A stretch of DNA of 31,148 bases from a virus. The notes under the pieces are model-generated. The model saw only the letters and a list, made by a program, of their open reading frames with translations, had not been told where the DNA came from and did no database searches. A program made the translations under genes and the position numbers. Within the stretch, counting starts at the first letter, position 1, and every line of letters starts with the position of its first letter. This document shows positions 14,230 to 20,385 of the stretch, piece after piece. The stretch covers positions 1-31,148 of the IMG/VR virus record IMGVR_UViG_3300020416_000038. One strand, 5' to 3'.

Positions 14230-15345
14230 TCAACACTTCCACTTTCTAAGTGCTAGTGCCTTACGAGTTGGTCTACCTTTTTCATCTTTCATCGGTCCTT
14301 TTACACCACTCATACGAGCACAGAATGATCTCTTTCTAGGACCACCACCTGGTTGTGGTGCTTTCAAATCAGAACCAGGATTCTCACGTTCGTAAGACTT
14401 TCTACCTTTCTCATTCAAACCACCAGTCTTATTCTTACCTTCCTTGCGTTGCCATGCAGCAGACTTCTCTTGTATTTTTTCTAACTGATCTAATGCTTTA
14501 CTCGACCAATATACATGTGTTTCTTCATTCTTTGGACGGCAATCAGGAACTAACTTACCACCCTTCATCTTCATACCTACTTTCTTATGAGTCTTCCAAC
14601 ACTCATCATAAAATTGGTTGAATGATTTTTCTTCTTTCATACGACGCTTGGCAGCGTTGCCTTGACCTTGAGCACTTGCACCTGTTCTCTTTCTTTGTGA
14701 AACTCTATTCTCACTAGTACCAGTTCCAAGTCTAAATGCTGTATCTCTATCAGCATCAGTTCTCTTGCCACCACCCTTCTTGATATCACTATCTTGCATC
14801 TCACGAGCACGTTGTGCTCTTGCACCAGTTAGTCCTTCATCTATATCTAAATTTTTTCTCCAAGAATATGATTCTTTCTTGCTGTTACCATAGTTAGCAG
14901 CACCTTTCTTACGGCATTGAACTAACCTACCAGATGCATATGCAGAAGGCCAGACACTAGCACTTGCTTTTACTTTATGGTAGCAAGCATCTTTCTTACC
15001 ACTACCTTTGCCTTTTTTATCTGCTTCGGAGATTTGAGTTTCTTCTTTCATTTTCTTTTTGGGTTTGTCAGTTGAAACATAAGTTGGTTTTGCAGCACCA
15101 GTTTTAGATTGTTGATTAGGATCTGCTTTCTTCTTACGACGTGAAGCAGATAATCTTTCTGCTTTGGTCATGCTTGCTCTTTTAGAAGATGACACACACT
15201 TAGGTGTACCTTCACCAGGTTTATCACTAGCACAAGTTCCACCAGTTACTACATTAACCCAACCTTTTTTGCCGTCCTTGGATTTAGATCCTGAGAACCA
15301 CTTGTGAAGATTACCTTCATCGATTAACTGGTGGACATTTGTCAT
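14230..15345 (-). CDS. Lys-rich multi-domain protein with DUF5872/DUF6321-like segments, 371 aa
   Basis: The N-terminus (LHKWFSGSKSKDGKKGWVNV, then GGTCASDKPGEGTPKC) and the segment KKDACYHKVKASASVWPSAY are DUF5872-like. The C-terminus (NPGSDLKAPQP, RKRSFCARMSGVKGP, RKALALRKWKC) is DUF6321-like. Both occur in marine phages without known role. The protein is very basic with paired Cys, suggesting nucleic-acid binding. An internal SFNQFYDEC segment resembles a capsid-targeting/gp21-cleavage motif. Domain names come from memory and are untested. Confidence 0.75.
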   Translation of the reverse strand: MTNVHQLIDEGNLHKWFSGSKSKDGKKGWVNVVTGGTCASDKPGEGTPKCVSSSKRASMTKAERLSASRRKKKADPNQQSKTGAAKPTYVSTDKPKKKMKEETQISEADKKGKGSGKKDACYHKVKASASVWPSAYASGRLVQCRKKGAANYGNSKKESYSWRKNLDIDEGLTGARAQRAREMQDSDIKKGGGKRTDADRDTAFRLGTGTSENRVSQRKRTGASAQGQGNAAKRRMKEEKSFNQFYDECWKTHKKVGMKMKGGKLVPDCRPKNEETHVYWSSKALDQLEKIQEKSAAWQRKEGKNKTGGLNEKGRKSYERENPGSDLKAPQPGGGPRKRSFCARMSGVKGPMKDEKGRPTRKALALRKWKC

Positions 15346-16169
15346 GTTCCTAGTCCTCTACCTTTATCGTAGTTGTCTTTCCCACCATACCTTGCCATGG
15401 TATCAACATAATTTTGGGTAGACTTGAACCCTCGTTTCTTTGCGTCACTAGCAGTTTGTTTCTTAGCGTCTGCTGCTTTCTTATACTTACCAGTACCTAC
15501 AGTAGACTTTGCACCTTTCACTTTCTTTTGTTGTTTACTGCCACCACTTGTCATGATTGCACCTTTACCATGTTCCTTCCTGATTTTATCAAGAACGAAT
15601 GACAATGCAGCATCCTTAGGTTTGTTCCCAGATGGTTTTTTAGTTCCACCCTTATCGTAACCCTTCTCTTTTTTAAGTCGGGTTGCTTCATGGAATTGTC
15701 CAAAGGTCAAGATCGAATTTTCAGTGCTCTCTTTTGTGCTTTTTTCTGAAATCTCTTCTTGACTGTCATAGGTTTTAGATTCAAAGTGGGGGTTTTTCAT
15801 TTGCGGACCTTTCATCATCTCTTTACGAGCTTTCTCATTATTTTTTAGGCGTTTTTTAAAGTCCGTCTCTAAGTATGTATCATCCTTTTTCTTTCCTTCT
15901 GACACTTCTTTTTTGAAGTGATCACCACCGCATGTTTTGCATGGGTCTTGACCGCAGTCACAGTCACATTTTCCCTTTCCTTCATGCACATATCCCAATT
16001 TCTTATACTTATCATGGTCAGCCATACTGTTGGCTTTATACTTCTTCCCAGTTTTCTTATCAATCATGATGTGAGGTTTAAACTCCTTCTCCATCATGTC
16101 CTTAAGTTTAGGATTAATCTTGACTGCAGTTTTCTTTTTTTCGTCTAGTGCTTTAAAACTAAGCATCAT
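15342..16169 (-). CDS. Lys-rich protein with Cys cluster, 275 aa
   Basis: From ATG 16169 it reads MMLSFKALDEKKKTAVKINP. A dense Cys cluster, CDCDCGQDPCKTCGGDH, lies around residues 70-85 and could bind zinc. The rest is very rich in Lys, and an internal LTFGQFHEATR resembles a capsid-targeting sequence. The start overlaps the upstream gene by 11 bases with AGAGG just ahead. It probably belongs with the neighbouring virion-internal-looking proteins; no function is established. Confidence 0.72.
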   Translation of the reverse strand: MMLSFKALDEKKKTAVKINPKLKDMMEKEFKPHIMIDKKTGKKYKANSMADHDKYKKLGYVHEGKGKCDCDCGQDPCKTCGGDHFKKEVSEGKKKDDTYLETDFKKRLKNNEKARKEMMKGPQMKNPHFESKTYDSQEEISEKSTKESTENSILTFGQFHEATRLKKEKGYDKGGTKKPSGNKPKDAALSFVLDKIRKEHGKGAIMTSGGSKQQKKVKGAKSTVGTGKYKKAADAKKQTASDAKKRGFKSTQNYVDTMARYGGKDNYDKGRGLGT

Positions 16170-16866
16170 CCTCTGCCTCGTCATGAATTACATGCTCATG
16201 CATGCCTCCCTCCAAAATTTCTAATTTAGAAACTGGAACATGCTTTTCAATACCATGCTCAAAGAAAACATCATAGTGTTGTACTACACCATTCTCATCA
16301 AGATCGTGCATTCCTTTGATGCAGTTACCAACACCAAACTCTTCATGTTTTACTTTAGATGCACAGTCATGCTTTTTCTTTTTCTTACTACCATAACCTT
16401 CACCCATCTCTTCTTTCTTCTTCTTCTTTTTCTTCATGTCACCATCATGAGATCCTCCACAAGTCTCTCCAAGAACTTCTAAGTTCTTATCATAGTTAAC
16501 AAAGTGTTCGTGTGGACCTTCTTTAATAATTTCTAATTCTTCTACAGGGACATTCTCCATAATGAAATTACCATCAGTAATATCATAGTGAGTTACAGTA
16601 CCATCTTCTAACAGGGTATGTGCTTCTGGAATTACATCATACTCTCTGTCTTCCATCTTAACTTTAGAAGCACAGAGGTGAGTTTTCTTACCCATCGCCT
16701 TGGTAACAGTCTTGCGGCGATTTAAAAGATAAGAATCAGTCTTATCTTTGTCACCGTCATTATCGATGTCACCATCCTCCTTACCGACAGGATCTAATTT
16801 TTTCTTTTCATACATCTGCACTTGTTTTAGTGCGTCCGATAAATCGGGTAGGTCTCTAAGATTCAT
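16159..16866 (-). CDS. Acidic/Lys-tract protein with an internal tandem duplication, 235 aa
   Basis: Near the N-terminus, KEDGDIDNDGDKDKTDSYLL resembles a calcium-binding EF-hand or dockerin loop. Two copies of a roughly 65-residue module follow: THLCASKVK...DGTVTHYDI...VPVEELEI...GPHEHFV and HDCASKVK...NGVVQHYDV...VPVSKLEI...GMHEHVI. Poly-Lys tracts separate them. The duplication is clear by eye; function is unknown, and a virion role is inferred from the neighbours. A GATAAATA sequence 25 bp upstream may be a weak late promoter. Confidence 0.75.
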   Translation of the reverse strand: MNLRDLPDLSDALKQVQMYEKKKLDPVGKEDGDIDNDGDKDKTDSYLLNRRKTVTKAMGKKTHLCASKVKMEDREYDVIPEAHTLLEDGTVTHYDITDGNFIMENVPVEELEIIKEGPHEHFVNYDKNLEVLGETCGGSHDGDMKKKKKKKEEMGEGYGSKKKKKHDCASKVKHEEFGVGNCIKGMHDLDENGVVQHYDVFFEHGIEKHVPVSKLEILEGGMHEHVIHDEAEDDA

Positions 16867-16870
16867 TTTA

Positions 16871-18016
16871 CTAACTGTCCTTGACGTTTTTATTTATCTT
16901 CCTAATGAATTCACCTGGTGTTAATCTTTTCATGTACCGAACAAGACTATCTGTTCCTTCCTCTCTTTCGGATGGTTTTAACCACCCTTTAACCTCTTTT
17001 AAGTCTCTTAACCAAGTACGAAAAAGATGATCAGACTCATCAATAGAGATGACGTAATTGCTACCACGACTAACAACCTTAGAAATGATACCTGTGTTAT
17101 TGTTTTCGACATAAGATCCTACCTCAAATAAATTTTGATTGAAATATACTTCTCGGAGACCTTGAGGATCTAACTTAGGAGCAATCTCATATAGATCATA
17201 TGATGCTTCTGCAAAATCATCAAACTCTTCTACTTGCATTGCTTGACGCAATGTCATATATAACTTCTCAGTACCATCTTTTCCTAGATTTTTTGACATT
17301 CCTTTACTAAAGGAATTGAAATCATCTTCTGCTGCTGCTTTACGAAGTTTAGATGCAGACATACCTTCTACACCTTCACCATCTGGATCTCTTGCTCCCG
17401 CAGAAACTACATTAATTTCATCAAATGTATATACATCTCCATTGTATTTCTGTGCAAGACTATTAAACTCACTAACTCTATCACCACCAACCACTAGATT
17501 GACTGAACTATATCCTTCTGCGTCAAGAGTGGTAAGAACATCAAAGATAGTTCTCATCTCTTCATTATTTTGAATAGCATTAGCATGATCAGGATATGCT
17601 TGCTTCATAAATTTAATTTTAGTTCCCGCATCAAGAGGGTTCTTCTTAGGATCTTCAGATCTAGACGGATATATTCTATACTCTCCTCCACTAGACTTTG
17701 CCTGTTGAGCAACCTTATCTAAAAGTTTCTCGTGACCAACAGTAGGTGGATTAAATCTTCCAAATGTAACAGATATGCTACCTTGATCGACCTGACCCTC
17801 GCCGCCTCCAGTTTCTTCTTCTCCATTTTGCTGCGTTGATGCTGCTGCTTGTTGAGCAGACACCTTAATTAGTTTACCATCCTTAGACAAGTGGGTGACG
17901 TTGCCATTTACATCGGCATACTTACCATACCCTACATGCTTAAGTTTTAATTTCTCTGCTTCTTTTGCAGCGAAGGATCTTTCGGCTTCAGTTAGGAAAG
18001 CACTGAACTTTTTCAT
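16871..18016 (-). CDS. Nucleotidylyltransferase-like protein with capsid-targeting-like N-terminus, 381 aa
   Basis: Residues 80-230 form a cytidylyltransferase/NMN-adenylyltransferase-like domain: VTFGRFNPPTVGHEKLL (HxGH-type loop as NPPTVGH, about 89-95), LVVGGDRVSEF, and SASKLRKAA (220-228), the ISSTxxR-like motif. Such enzymes transfer a nucleotide to a small phosphate compound. The N-terminus MKKFSAFLTEAERSF resembles T4 capsid-targeting sequences with a gp21 protease site after LTE. The C-terminal 130 residues are unassigned. Fold confident; substrate unknown. Confidence 0.82.
   Translation of the reverse strand: MKKFSAFLTEAERSFAAKEAEKLKLKHVGYGKYADVNGNVTHLSKDGKLIKVSAQQAAASTQQNGEEETGGGEGQVDQGSISVTFGRFNPPTVGHEKLLDKVAQQAKSSGGEYRIYPSRSEDPKKNPLDAGTKIKFMKQAYPDHANAIQNNEEMRTIFDVLTTLDAEGYSSVNLVVGGDRVSEFNSLAQKYNGDVYTFDEINVVSAGARDPDGEGVEGMSASKLRKAAAEDDFNSFSKGMSKNLGKDGTEKLYMTLRQAMQVEEFDDFAEASYDLYEIAPKLDPQGLREVYFNQNLFEVGSYVENNNTGIISKVVSRGSNYVISIDESDHLFRTWLRDLKEVKGWLKPSEREEGTDSLVRYMKRLTPGEFIRKINKNVKDS
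16891..16898 (-). promoter_or_regulatory. Possible late promoter GATAAATA
   Basis: One mismatch from TATAAATA on the minus strand, 25 bp before the ATG at 16866. It overlaps the end of the upstream coding sequence, so it could be chance. Confidence 0.35.
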
Positions 18017-18974
18017 TCTGCCAATTCTTACTAAGGTTAAAGTTTGCTTTACTAAAGGTCAACCGATCTACAATTTTGTAAGGATTATTTGAAACTGTCA
18101 CGAACCCCTCATGCTGAGAGGATTCACCATCGATGTAACATTCAACATTTCCATTTACAAAAATCGCATCGAGTAGACGCTGTTTCAGTTGGAAGATTTG
18201 ATGCCATACCCTGAAGGTACTTACATTTACTTCTCCCTTATATTTAGCATCTAATGTATCGTACATTTTTTGAGGACGCGGAAGTGTCCCTTGTCGTACG
18301 AATGAATTGATATGTTTTGCTATCTCTGTGCGGGATTGGGGAACCTTTGCCACCATGATTGTAGGTAGTATTTTTGCTAGATGTCTCCATCCCAAAGGTG
18401 GTTCTACAGTAGCATTATTAGTATCAACAAAGTAGCAACTAGAAGTGCTATCAAGACTAACTCCTATCTTACCCTCAGCAGTAGGACTGAGTTCTGTATA
18501 CTCTGTATGTGGTGCTAGAATAATTTGTTCAGAAATCTTATGATCAAACTTATACTGAATAGTATTAGGACAATAAACACTGCCCCCACCGACACCGATC
18601 CAATCAGCTTGGATAATACGATTGATGCGAGGAAGGTGATCAAGACATAACCTAAGAATGTCAGCGACAGTGCCTTGATGATTCTTATCAATGTCCTCAT
18701 GACTGTAATTGATTTTGATTTTGCGTTTGTTGAAAACGGACTTAGTGCCCACAAAGAACTTACCATTCTCAGGATTAGTACCAAACACTATGGCAGGAGC
18801 ACCGTCCCATTTGACAGACAGTCTAGTAACTGTCACAAGTTCTTTGATGGCATCTATTGCAACCTTACGTCCTTGAAGGATTGAATCTTCTGGGTGTTCA
18901 AGGTGTTTGTTGGGCATCTGAACCGTTTCTGATACCCATATTATACTACATCCACACGCTGTTTTAGGTCTCAT
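17988..18974 (-). CDS. DUF6267-like protein with ligase-type nucleotidyltransferase motifs, 328 aa
   Basis: The KWDGAPAIVFG segment (K55, D57, G58) matches motif I (KxDG) of covalent nucleotidyltransferases such as RNA and DNA ligases; GKFFVGTKSVFN follows, EGFV (289-292) matches motif IV and YKIVDR (299-304) could be motif V. The HLEHPEDSIL start and KWDGAPA core agree with DUF6267 proteins of T4-like phages. ATG 18974 follows GAGGAAAG; ATG 18917, just before PNKHLEHPED, is an alternative. The gene overlaps the nucleotidylyltransferase gene by 29 bases. Activity is inference. Confidence 0.78.
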   Translation of the reverse strand: MRPKTACGCSIIWVSETVQMPNKHLEHPEDSILQGRKVAIDAIKELVTVTRLSVKWDGAPAIVFGTNPENGKFFVGTKSVFNKRKIKINYSHEDIDKNHQGTVADILRLCLDHLPRINRIIQADWIGVGGGSVYCPNTIQYKFDHKISEQIILAPHTEYTELSPTAEGKIGVSLDSTSSCYFVDTNNATVEPPLGWRHLAKILPTIMVAKVPQSRTEIAKHINSFVRQGTLPRPQKMYDTLDAKYKGEVNVSTFRVWHQIFQLKQRLLDAIFVNGNVECYIDGESSQHEGFVTVSNNPYKIVDRLTFSKANFNLSKNWQNEKVQCFPN

Positions 18975-18987
18975 TGTGCCACTTTCC

Positions 18988-20385
18988 TCACTGGAGCTTC
19001 CAATACACAGACGACTTGTCCGACTGTGATGATGCGTACAAATATATTTCCTTTATGATCTGGTCAGAATCTCTATGAGTGGACACCCAATCTAAAAATT
19101 TTAATCCCGCATATTTACTATACTTCCATGCTTGTTCTGCCTCATCTTTAATCCATGCCATATCAGTTGCTTTATTCTTCAAACCCTTTGCTTTATATTT
19201 TACCAGTAAATTATAGATTTCCTCATCCAACTTATTAGTCTTTGCTTTAGTCCAAGTATCTGTTCCACCATACTCAGGTAGTGTACCAAACTTACCATCC
19301 TTTAGTAATTCTTGTACCTTCTTACCTTGTATCTTACCCTGTGCAGCAGACTTACCTTTCAACTCTAACTTCCAATCACCTTTGGTAGGACCACCAAAAT
19401 TTCTTGCCTGAAATTTTTCAAAATTACCTGTGCCGTAGTACACATAAACATCCATAGGATGACTGTCACCCTTTCTACCATTATCGAATACCAAATCATA
19501 CTTTGCAAAGTATGCTTTCTCGTTTGCTTTTCTTTCAGCAGGAGGTCTATCGTTTAATAGTTTCATCTTAGGCAAACCTTCAATCTTCTTCAAAGATATA
19601 CCAACCAACTGTCCGTCTGCTCTCAATTGTAACAAAGCATTGTTTAGACAATCAATAGTAGTTTCTTTATTAAGATGATTTTTTACTTTAGTCTTATCCT
19701 TTACCATCCATATATCAGAAGGATTCCATTTATCTTCAGAAGATAAGTTAGTTTGACTCTTTACTCTATTGAATGCATTCTTAACTGCACCATCATCAAT
19801 CATAGAATCACCCCTAACAAATGTCCATCCCTTACCACCTACTTTACCAAATATTTCATTAGCACCTGCCCAAGATGATTCTTGCCAGTCCTTTCCTAGT
19901 GAAAGAATTTCATCTAACTTTGCAGTTACGTCGCAATACCGCATGCCACATTTAAAATCTTCTTCAGTAAATGCTTTCTTCTTTTCTATATTAGGACAGT
20001 AATATCTCATGGCAGCATAGACACACTGTGCAGATTCTACCAGTGCAGTTTGTGCAGCACCACCACCAGATCCTTTACTGTTCTCTGGTTTAACTTCTAC
20101 TCTAATAACTTGCTTCTCTCTGATTGGAATATCTAAGGAAGTGCCTTTCGCATTAGTTGTAATTCCTGGATAGTTTTCATCTAATGCACTTTTTATATTT
20201 TGAACTGCTGTAAGTCTTTTTATTTGAGGAACAAAAACTTTTAATGCTATCTGAACTTTCTTGGTTGAGTCCTTTTCTTCTACGTTCTTAACATCAAATA
20301 AGTAATACGAATAATCATCACCTCCCAATGCCTTCATCACATCTTCGAAGGCAGACTTATTTACTGGAGGAATTGTTATTGCCAT
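18988..20385 (-). CDS. Unknown protein with a possible PD-(D/E)xK-like core, 465 aa
   Basis: The segment KPENSKGSGGGAAQTALVES (about 99-118) is glycine-rich and conserved in phage proteins I have seen. NPSDIWMV (D224) followed about 40 residues later by LVGISLKKIEG (S264, K266, K267) has the spacing of a restriction-nuclease-like core but lacks the usual acidic residue before the Lys. The rest is mixed alpha/beta. It starts by a TAATG overlap at 20385. No function can be assigned. Confidence 0.78.
   Translation of the reverse strand: MAITIPPVNKSAFEDVMKALGGDDYSYYLFDVKNVEEKDSTKKVQIALKVFVPQIKRLTAVQNIKSALDENYPGITTNAKGTSLDIPIREKQVIRVEVKPENSKGSGGGAAQTALVESAQCVYAAMRYYCPNIEKKKAFTEEDFKCGMRYCDVTAKLDEILSLGKDWQESSWAGANEIFGKVGGKGWTFVRGDSMIDDGAVKNAFNRVKSQTNLSSEDKWNPSDIWMVKDKTKVKNHLNKETTIDCLNNALLQLRADGQLVGISLKKIEGLPKMKLLNDRPPAERKANEKAYFAKYDLVFDNGRKGDSHPMDVYVYYGTGNFEKFQARNFGGPTKGDWKLELKGKSAAQGKIQGKKVQELLKDGKFGTLPEYGGTDTWTKAKTNKLDEEIYNLLVKYKAKGLKNKATDMAWIKDEAEQAWKYSKYAGLKFLDWVSTHRDSDQIIKEIYLYASSQSDKSSVYWKLQ

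Follow-up and report, generated by a model that had tools for sequence, protein, structure and literature searches.

Does a marine T4-like phage pack an enzyme into its head and deliver it with its DNA? This question is raised by the nucleotidylyltransferase gene in a 31,148-nucleotide stretch of viral DNA (IMG/VR record IMGVR_UViG_3300020416_000038, positions 1 to 31,148; here called the window). The window comes from a T4-like cyanophage, and the Prochlorococcus phage P-SSM7 is a relative of the record, with 87% DNA identity over 58% of the query. An earlier note, made from the letters of the window, had pointed out that the protein starts with MKKFSAFLTEA, close to the pattern that targets T4 internal proteins to the head. 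The gene and its parts are as follows.

16871-18016, minus strand: nucleotidylyltransferase of the family T4-GC190 (Pfam CTP_transf_like, PHROG 395, AlphaFold2 model and Foldseek)
17987-18016, minus strand: putative T4-type capsid-targeting sequence MKKFSAFLTE, with a predicted gp21 cut after E10 and before A11
17846-17986, minus strand: shared module of about 40 residues, at residues 11-57 of the nucleotidylyltransferase (found by profile search)

The open reading frame (ORF) 16871-18016 has an ATG start and the N-terminus MKKFSAFLTEAERS, in which MKKFSAFLTE is followed by A. The capsid-targeting sequence of IPIII has been analysed by mutagenesis in T4, where residues 4 and 7 were assigned to targeting and residues 8 and 10 to processing; cleavage by gp21 in T4 falls after L/I-x-E (PMC9026906). 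In the T4 record, ipII and ipIII both start with MKTYQEFIAEA, and gp23 holds GSFLTEAEIGG. We defined a strict T4-type pattern as M..[FYW]..[FY][ILVMH].[ED] at the start codon. In the window it was found at the nucleotidylyltransferase gene alone, with about 0.016 such N-termini expected by chance in the 36 window proteins. In 49 kb of T4 it was confined to ipII and ipIII, in P-SSM7 to the GC190 and GC119 genes and in S-SM1 to GC190, with one additional antisense artefact in each of the two cyanophages.

The conservation of the tag was analysed in IMG/VR homologue loci that had been chosen without regard to the motif. F4, F7, L8 and E10 were invariant in all 79 homologues with a complete N-terminus, residue 9 was free, and the consensus was MK[KS]F[SN][AS]FLxEA. 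An overlap with the gene upstream might have conserved the tag as a mere side effect, but this was ruled out: the overlap differs among the homologues (29, 14, 0 or -1 nucleotides) while the tag is unchanged, and it therefore does not explain the conservation. The tag was also retained in the distant homologues of P-SSM2, S-SSM7, S-SCSM1 and S-CREM2, where the rest of the N-terminal region differs. The resemblance described in the earlier note is thus borne out, and the sequence data support the view that the nucleotidylyltransferase bears a T4-type capsid-targeting sequence. We regard it as highly probable that the tag works in head targeting, and with nearly the same confidence predict that it is cut off after E10.

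The earlier note had held that absence from virions would speak against packaging. Orthologues were detected in the virions of three cyanophages: in S-SM1, T4-GC190 was found by mass spectrometry and is counted in the cyanophage core (Sullivan and colleagues, PMC3037559), in S-SCSM1 the virion proteome includes the nicotinamide mononucleotide (NMN) adenylyltransferase, NMNAT (PMC9602691), and the third is S-CREM2. Virion presence of the family rests on these published orthologues and not on the phage of the window. In the S-CREM2 virion, 52 of the 219 proteins were detected (PMC10665884). A search for the motif in other cyanophage proteins, which the earlier note had proposed, found the strict T4-type N-terminus in 3 of the 219 S-CREM2 proteins, and all three are virion proteins (Fisher P = 0.013). 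They are the S-adenosylmethionine (SAM) lyase gp6 (MKDFDSFLEE; L101:3837-5081, identified by Pfam with E = 2.3e-19), the kinase gp14 (VKRFDAFLTE) and the cytidylyltransferase gp154 (MKNFSSFLTE). Shuffled S-CREM2 N-termini gave a mean of 0.067 strict motifs (P = 1.5e-4 for the observed 3).

When the motif was searched within the first 40 residues of the S-CREM2 proteins, 8 matches were obtained, 7 of them in the virion (P = 2e-4). This search added gp12 (LRFASFMAE, motif at residues 18-27), gp13 and gp136, among others; the baseplate protein gp122, also among the 7, is probably a chance match. All four enzymes that the authors classed as regulatory or replication/metabolism virion proteins were tagged, gp12 being the one whose motif lies away from the start. 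A broader N-terminal pattern matched 6 virion and 6 non-virion proteins and was rejected as not specific. The tag is an independent reason for regarding the virion-detected enzymes as packaged.

IMG/VR DNA was then scanned for an ATG start encoding MK, a residue such as S or T, F-x-x-F, a residue such as I or L, and x-E, followed by K or A. Each of the two tag patterns occurred in at least 120 IMG/VR stretches, whereas the same codons in permuted order had 5 matches in the whole collection. Among the 252 matches listed, 10 lay in closed ORFs shorter than 45 residues, and the ORFs of at least 70 residues formed 66 clusters. For 54 representatives of these clusters, the Pfam matches included DUF6267, adenylate kinase, Acb1, lytic transglycolase, GNAT and cytidylyltransferase-like proteins. 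One tag-bearing representative matched Phage_capsid, so some of the IMG/VR tag matches are not internal cargo; it is probably the protein at L200:35-1336, which starts with MKTFENFLVEK.

Acb1-like proteins, which act against the cyclic-oligonucleotide-based antiphage signalling system (CBASS), start with a T4-type tag at L129:7670-8173 (Pfam E = 1.7e-14) and at L138:3606-4097; their sequences suggest a counter-defence delivered from the head. In S-CRM01 (L095:1205-5783), the products of five consecutive genes resemble the tag at their N-termini, in one case behind a short leader, and include a protein kinase and the nucleotidylyltransferase. This run looks like a cargo operon.

C-terminal to the tag lies the module of about 40 residues, with the approximate sequence LGLxxxGxGxWxDxxGxxVAKTxxGxL. 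A hidden Markov model was built from 39 seeds, taken from NMNAT-like and other tagged proteins and including the window protein, and 4844 ORFs were searched. The module of the window, itself a seed, scored E = 3.7e-15. Proteins outside the seeds were also matched, namely the kinases of four phages (with two copies in three of them), large gp12-like proteins and gp179 of ACG-2014f, and the next-best of the 4844 ORFs had E = 0.07. The S-CREM2 gp154 protein is without the module. Our guess is that the module binds the prohead core or DNA.

Where T4 gp23 is cut, cyanophage gp23 has L-x-E, as QVLNE followed by T in P-SSM7 and QILTE followed by T in S-SM1, and P-SSM7 has an annotated gp21. Among the large tag-bearing IMG/VR records, 9 of 11 had gp23 and 7 of 11 a gp21-type protease (Peptidase_S77). 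None of the 4 control records, which are smaller than the tag-bearing ones, had either.

The enzyme behind the tag was analysed by AlphaFold2 and Foldseek. The core, at about residues 79-260, resembles adenylyltransferases of nicotinic acid mononucleotide (NaMN) and NMN, and is followed by a C-terminal beta domain at about residues 302-342. The best 15 Foldseek matches were all NaMN/NMN adenylyltransferases, with E down to 1.4e-5; the phosphopantetheine adenylyltransferase and flavin adenine dinucleotide synthetase folds matched as well, with weaker scores. Two motifs, the nucleotide-binding GRFNPPTxGH and SASKxR, show strict conservation, and this speaks for an active enzyme. As modelled, the mature protein is most likely an enzyme of the NMN/NaMN-adenylyltransferase type; that NMN or NaMN is its substrate has, in our estimate, an even chance.

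From the motif, its conservation, the fold and the published virion proteomes we infer the cleavage, the inside-head location, the injection and the substrate. In the proposed mechanism, the first ten residues of the nucleotidylyltransferase would bind the prohead core, and a gp21-type prohead protease would cut off the tag after E10. The mature enzyme would stay inside the head with the DNA and enter the host at infection, where it may act on host nicotinamide adenine dinucleotide (NAD) or a related nucleotide ahead of phage gene expression; the earlier note had suggested host NAD or RNA as the possible target. That the protein is an internal head protein of this kind, delivered with the DNA and with NAD-type activity, we consider probable; the injection into the host, taken by itself, is somewhat more likely than not.

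The genes around the nucleotidylyltransferase are listed here.

18988-20385, minus strand: PHROG 1462 protein, without a tag; homologue labelled virion protein in the S-SCSM1 record
17988-18974, minus strand: DUF6267 protein (Pfam) with a KWDG motif, without a tag; probable start at 18917 (MPNKHLEH), a start conserved in homologues
16159-16866, minus strand: Lys-rich protein without a tag; homologue labelled virion protein in the S-SCSM1 record
15342-16184, minus strand: Lys-rich protein of PHROG 1784, probable real start at 16166; weak internal TFGQFHEA at about 15684-15707
16140-16166, minus strand: N-terminus MLSFKALDE of the preceding protein, resembling a capsid-targeting sequence, with a predicted cut before KK; recurs in relatives
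14230-15345, minus strand: Lys-rich DUF6321 protein (Pfam), a T4-GC119 relative; weak internal SFNQFYDEC at about 14599-14625
15316-15345, minus strand: N-terminus MTNVHQLIDE of the DUF6321 protein, followed by G, weakly resembling a capsid-targeting sequence; the P-SSM7 relative starts with MKTYSQFIEE, then G

Both S-SCSM1 homologues labelled virion protein are neighbours of its NMNAT. PHROG matches in the window also place relatives of head proteins near the nucleotidylyltransferase cluster.

The earlier note had read FxxFxxE segments inside two of the Lys-rich proteins as further tags. The segments exist, but their number is near chance. FxxFx(x)[ED] occurred 7 times in the 36 window proteins, with 4.0 expected (P = 0.11); the narrower [ST]FxxFx(x)E, with P = 0.026, was picked after the data had been seen. 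Both SFNQFYDEC and TFGQFHEA are without L/I-x-E, and only some relatives of the 15342-16184 protein share its internal motif, at variable spacing. As cleavage sites, the internal motifs were therefore rejected.

The N-termini of both proteins are the better tag candidates by sequence, MTNVHQLIDE weakly so. Homologues of the 15342-16184 protein start at the equivalent of 16166, and 16184 is probably six codons too early; the real start is probably 16166, giving MLSFKALDE followed by KKK. In 65 ORFs an N-terminus of the type M-L-[ST]-F-x-x-(Y)-L-x-E-[KR]-K was found, in 22 variants and with x free, the other positions being fixed by the pattern used in the search, and relatives of this protein have the 10-residue variant MLSFKAYLAE followed by KK. 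Relatives of the 14230-15345 protein start with MKNFHQLIDE or MKTYSQFIEE, each followed by G. Elsewhere, adjacent pairs of tagged genes were seen at L314:639-1591 and L242:3736-4529, and the first gene of the former has a domain in common with the DUF6321 protein of the window and its S-SM1 relative.

In the DUF6267 protein, K36, D38 and G39 of the KWDG motif are invariant among homologues. Its model (pLDDT 84.9) has a weak likeness to RNA/DNA ligases in Foldseek, with a best E of 9.4e-3 and low TM-scores, and nearly all matches are ligases or capping enzymes. The PHROG 455 profile spans both the DUF6267 protein and the tagged nucleotidylyltransferase (16871-18974), and some phages may therefore have them as one fused protein, with the tag lying where they join. 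The nucleotidylyltransferase of S-RIM44 (L096:6055-6815) is divided over two ORFs, and in tblastn several relatives (S-WAM2, S-CAM1, S-CAM4 and Sf-CH3) likewise gave two pieces. The position upstream of DUF6267 or the nucleotidylyltransferase is occupied by different proteins in the window (18988-20385), S-SM1, P-SSM2, HTVC008M and ACG-2014f. By eye they look like PD-(D/E)XK nucleases; no family match was found for the window member.

Several observations weigh against delivery of the nucleotidylyltransferase from the head. The homologue of the Pelagibacter phage HTVC008M has no tag, no gp21 lies in the window, which is only a fragment, and the AlphaFold2 model has a low overall confidence (mean pLDDT 61.9), being confident mainly in the core. 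Virion mass spectrometry does not distinguish inside from outside, and N-terminal mapping of a cyanophage head protein was not found in the literature searched. A highly expressed metabolic enzyme might simply co-purify with virions, its motif being a coincidence or an oligomerisation helix. The authors of two virion proteomes raised co-purification themselves (PMC9602691 for S-SCSM1), and gp154 of S-CREM2 was detected by 3 unique peptides alone. However, the detection in three separate phages argues against it, as do a motif that is unexpected by chance and constrained at exactly the positions critical in T4, and the presence of this motif in other, unrelated enzymes of the virion; we consider co-purification quite unlikely.

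The N-terminus could also target a scaffold or structural part of the prohead that is not injected, with an enzyme domain that is vestigial or acts in assembly. The head-protein relatives encoded next door would fit this, and a place in the core or a part in DNA condensation is conceivable for the Lys-rich neighbours. The strictly conserved nucleotide-binding and SASKxR motifs point instead to an active enzyme, and the tag is found on many different enzymes elsewhere, which makes a scaffold role unlikely. In its full version, the earlier note had the internal sites of the two Lys-rich proteins cut and the ligase-motif protein packed as well. The internal motifs recur in some relatives, a Lys-rich relative is labelled virion protein in S-SCSM1, and two tagged DUF6267 proteins were found elsewhere (L229 and L255). 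Against it stand the chance-level count, the missing L/I-x-E and the absence of a tag on the DUF6267 protein here, whose P-SSM7 orthologue is without the mark 'similar to S-SM1 protein' that, in our reading, the families detected by mass spectrometry bear. DUF6267 is probably not cargo in the lineage of the window, and the full version is quite unlikely.

Delivery of the tagged enzyme with the DNA remains our preferred reading. Beyond this locus, the chances are slightly better than even that head delivery in marine T4-like phages is a general, modular system, in which many proteins unrelated to each other bear the tag, at times with the module: NMNAT-like enzymes, kinases, SAM lyase, the anti-CBASS Acb1, adenylate kinase, DUF6267 and others. 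If this is true, counter-defence and takeover enzymes would enter the host together with the DNA, and abundant ocean viruses would deliver enzymes at infection, among them proteins that likely counter restriction (SAM lyase) and CBASS (Acb1). Cargo would be predictable from sequence alone by the tag. For the cyanophage virion enzymes, whose status as cargo or contaminant had been left open, a tag with a known T4 mechanism offers a gene-by-gene test.

That the tag serves to pack varied proteins, often with a counter-defence function, is already set out in reviews of T4 (PMC3012670, PMC9026906), so that the kind of system is known; what appears to be new is the set of cyanophage cargo proteins, together with the second module. 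In the open literature searched, which most subscription papers lie outside, cyanophages are barely mentioned alongside 'capsid targeting sequence', and the tag in cyanophages may have been recognised earlier in such papers.

Compared with IPII and IPIII of T4, the cyanophage protein has the same ten-residue tag at the extreme N-terminus, with aromatic residues at 4 and 7, L/I at 8, E at 10 and A after the cut. In contrast to the T4 proteins, the tag sits on a large enzyme, often with a second conserved module that they lack, and its cleavage is predicted. Like the packaged ADP-ribosyltransferase Alt of T4 (PMC9026906), it would be a head-packed enzyme that hits host targets via NAD chemistry, but it belongs to another enzyme class and Alt is also processed C-terminally. 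With NadD and NMNAT it shares the core fold, as in the best 15 Foldseek matches, and motifs of the GxFxPP(T/H)xGH and SxSKxR type. The identity is 12-17%, however, and the phage protein, whose activity is predicted, has the viral tag, the module and the extra C-terminal beta domain. The kinases, SAM lyase and NMNAT-like proteins associated with the virions of S-CRM01, S-CREM2 and S-SCSM1 are orthologous or similarly tagged, but no packaging signal was named for them in earlier reports, which also left their location open.

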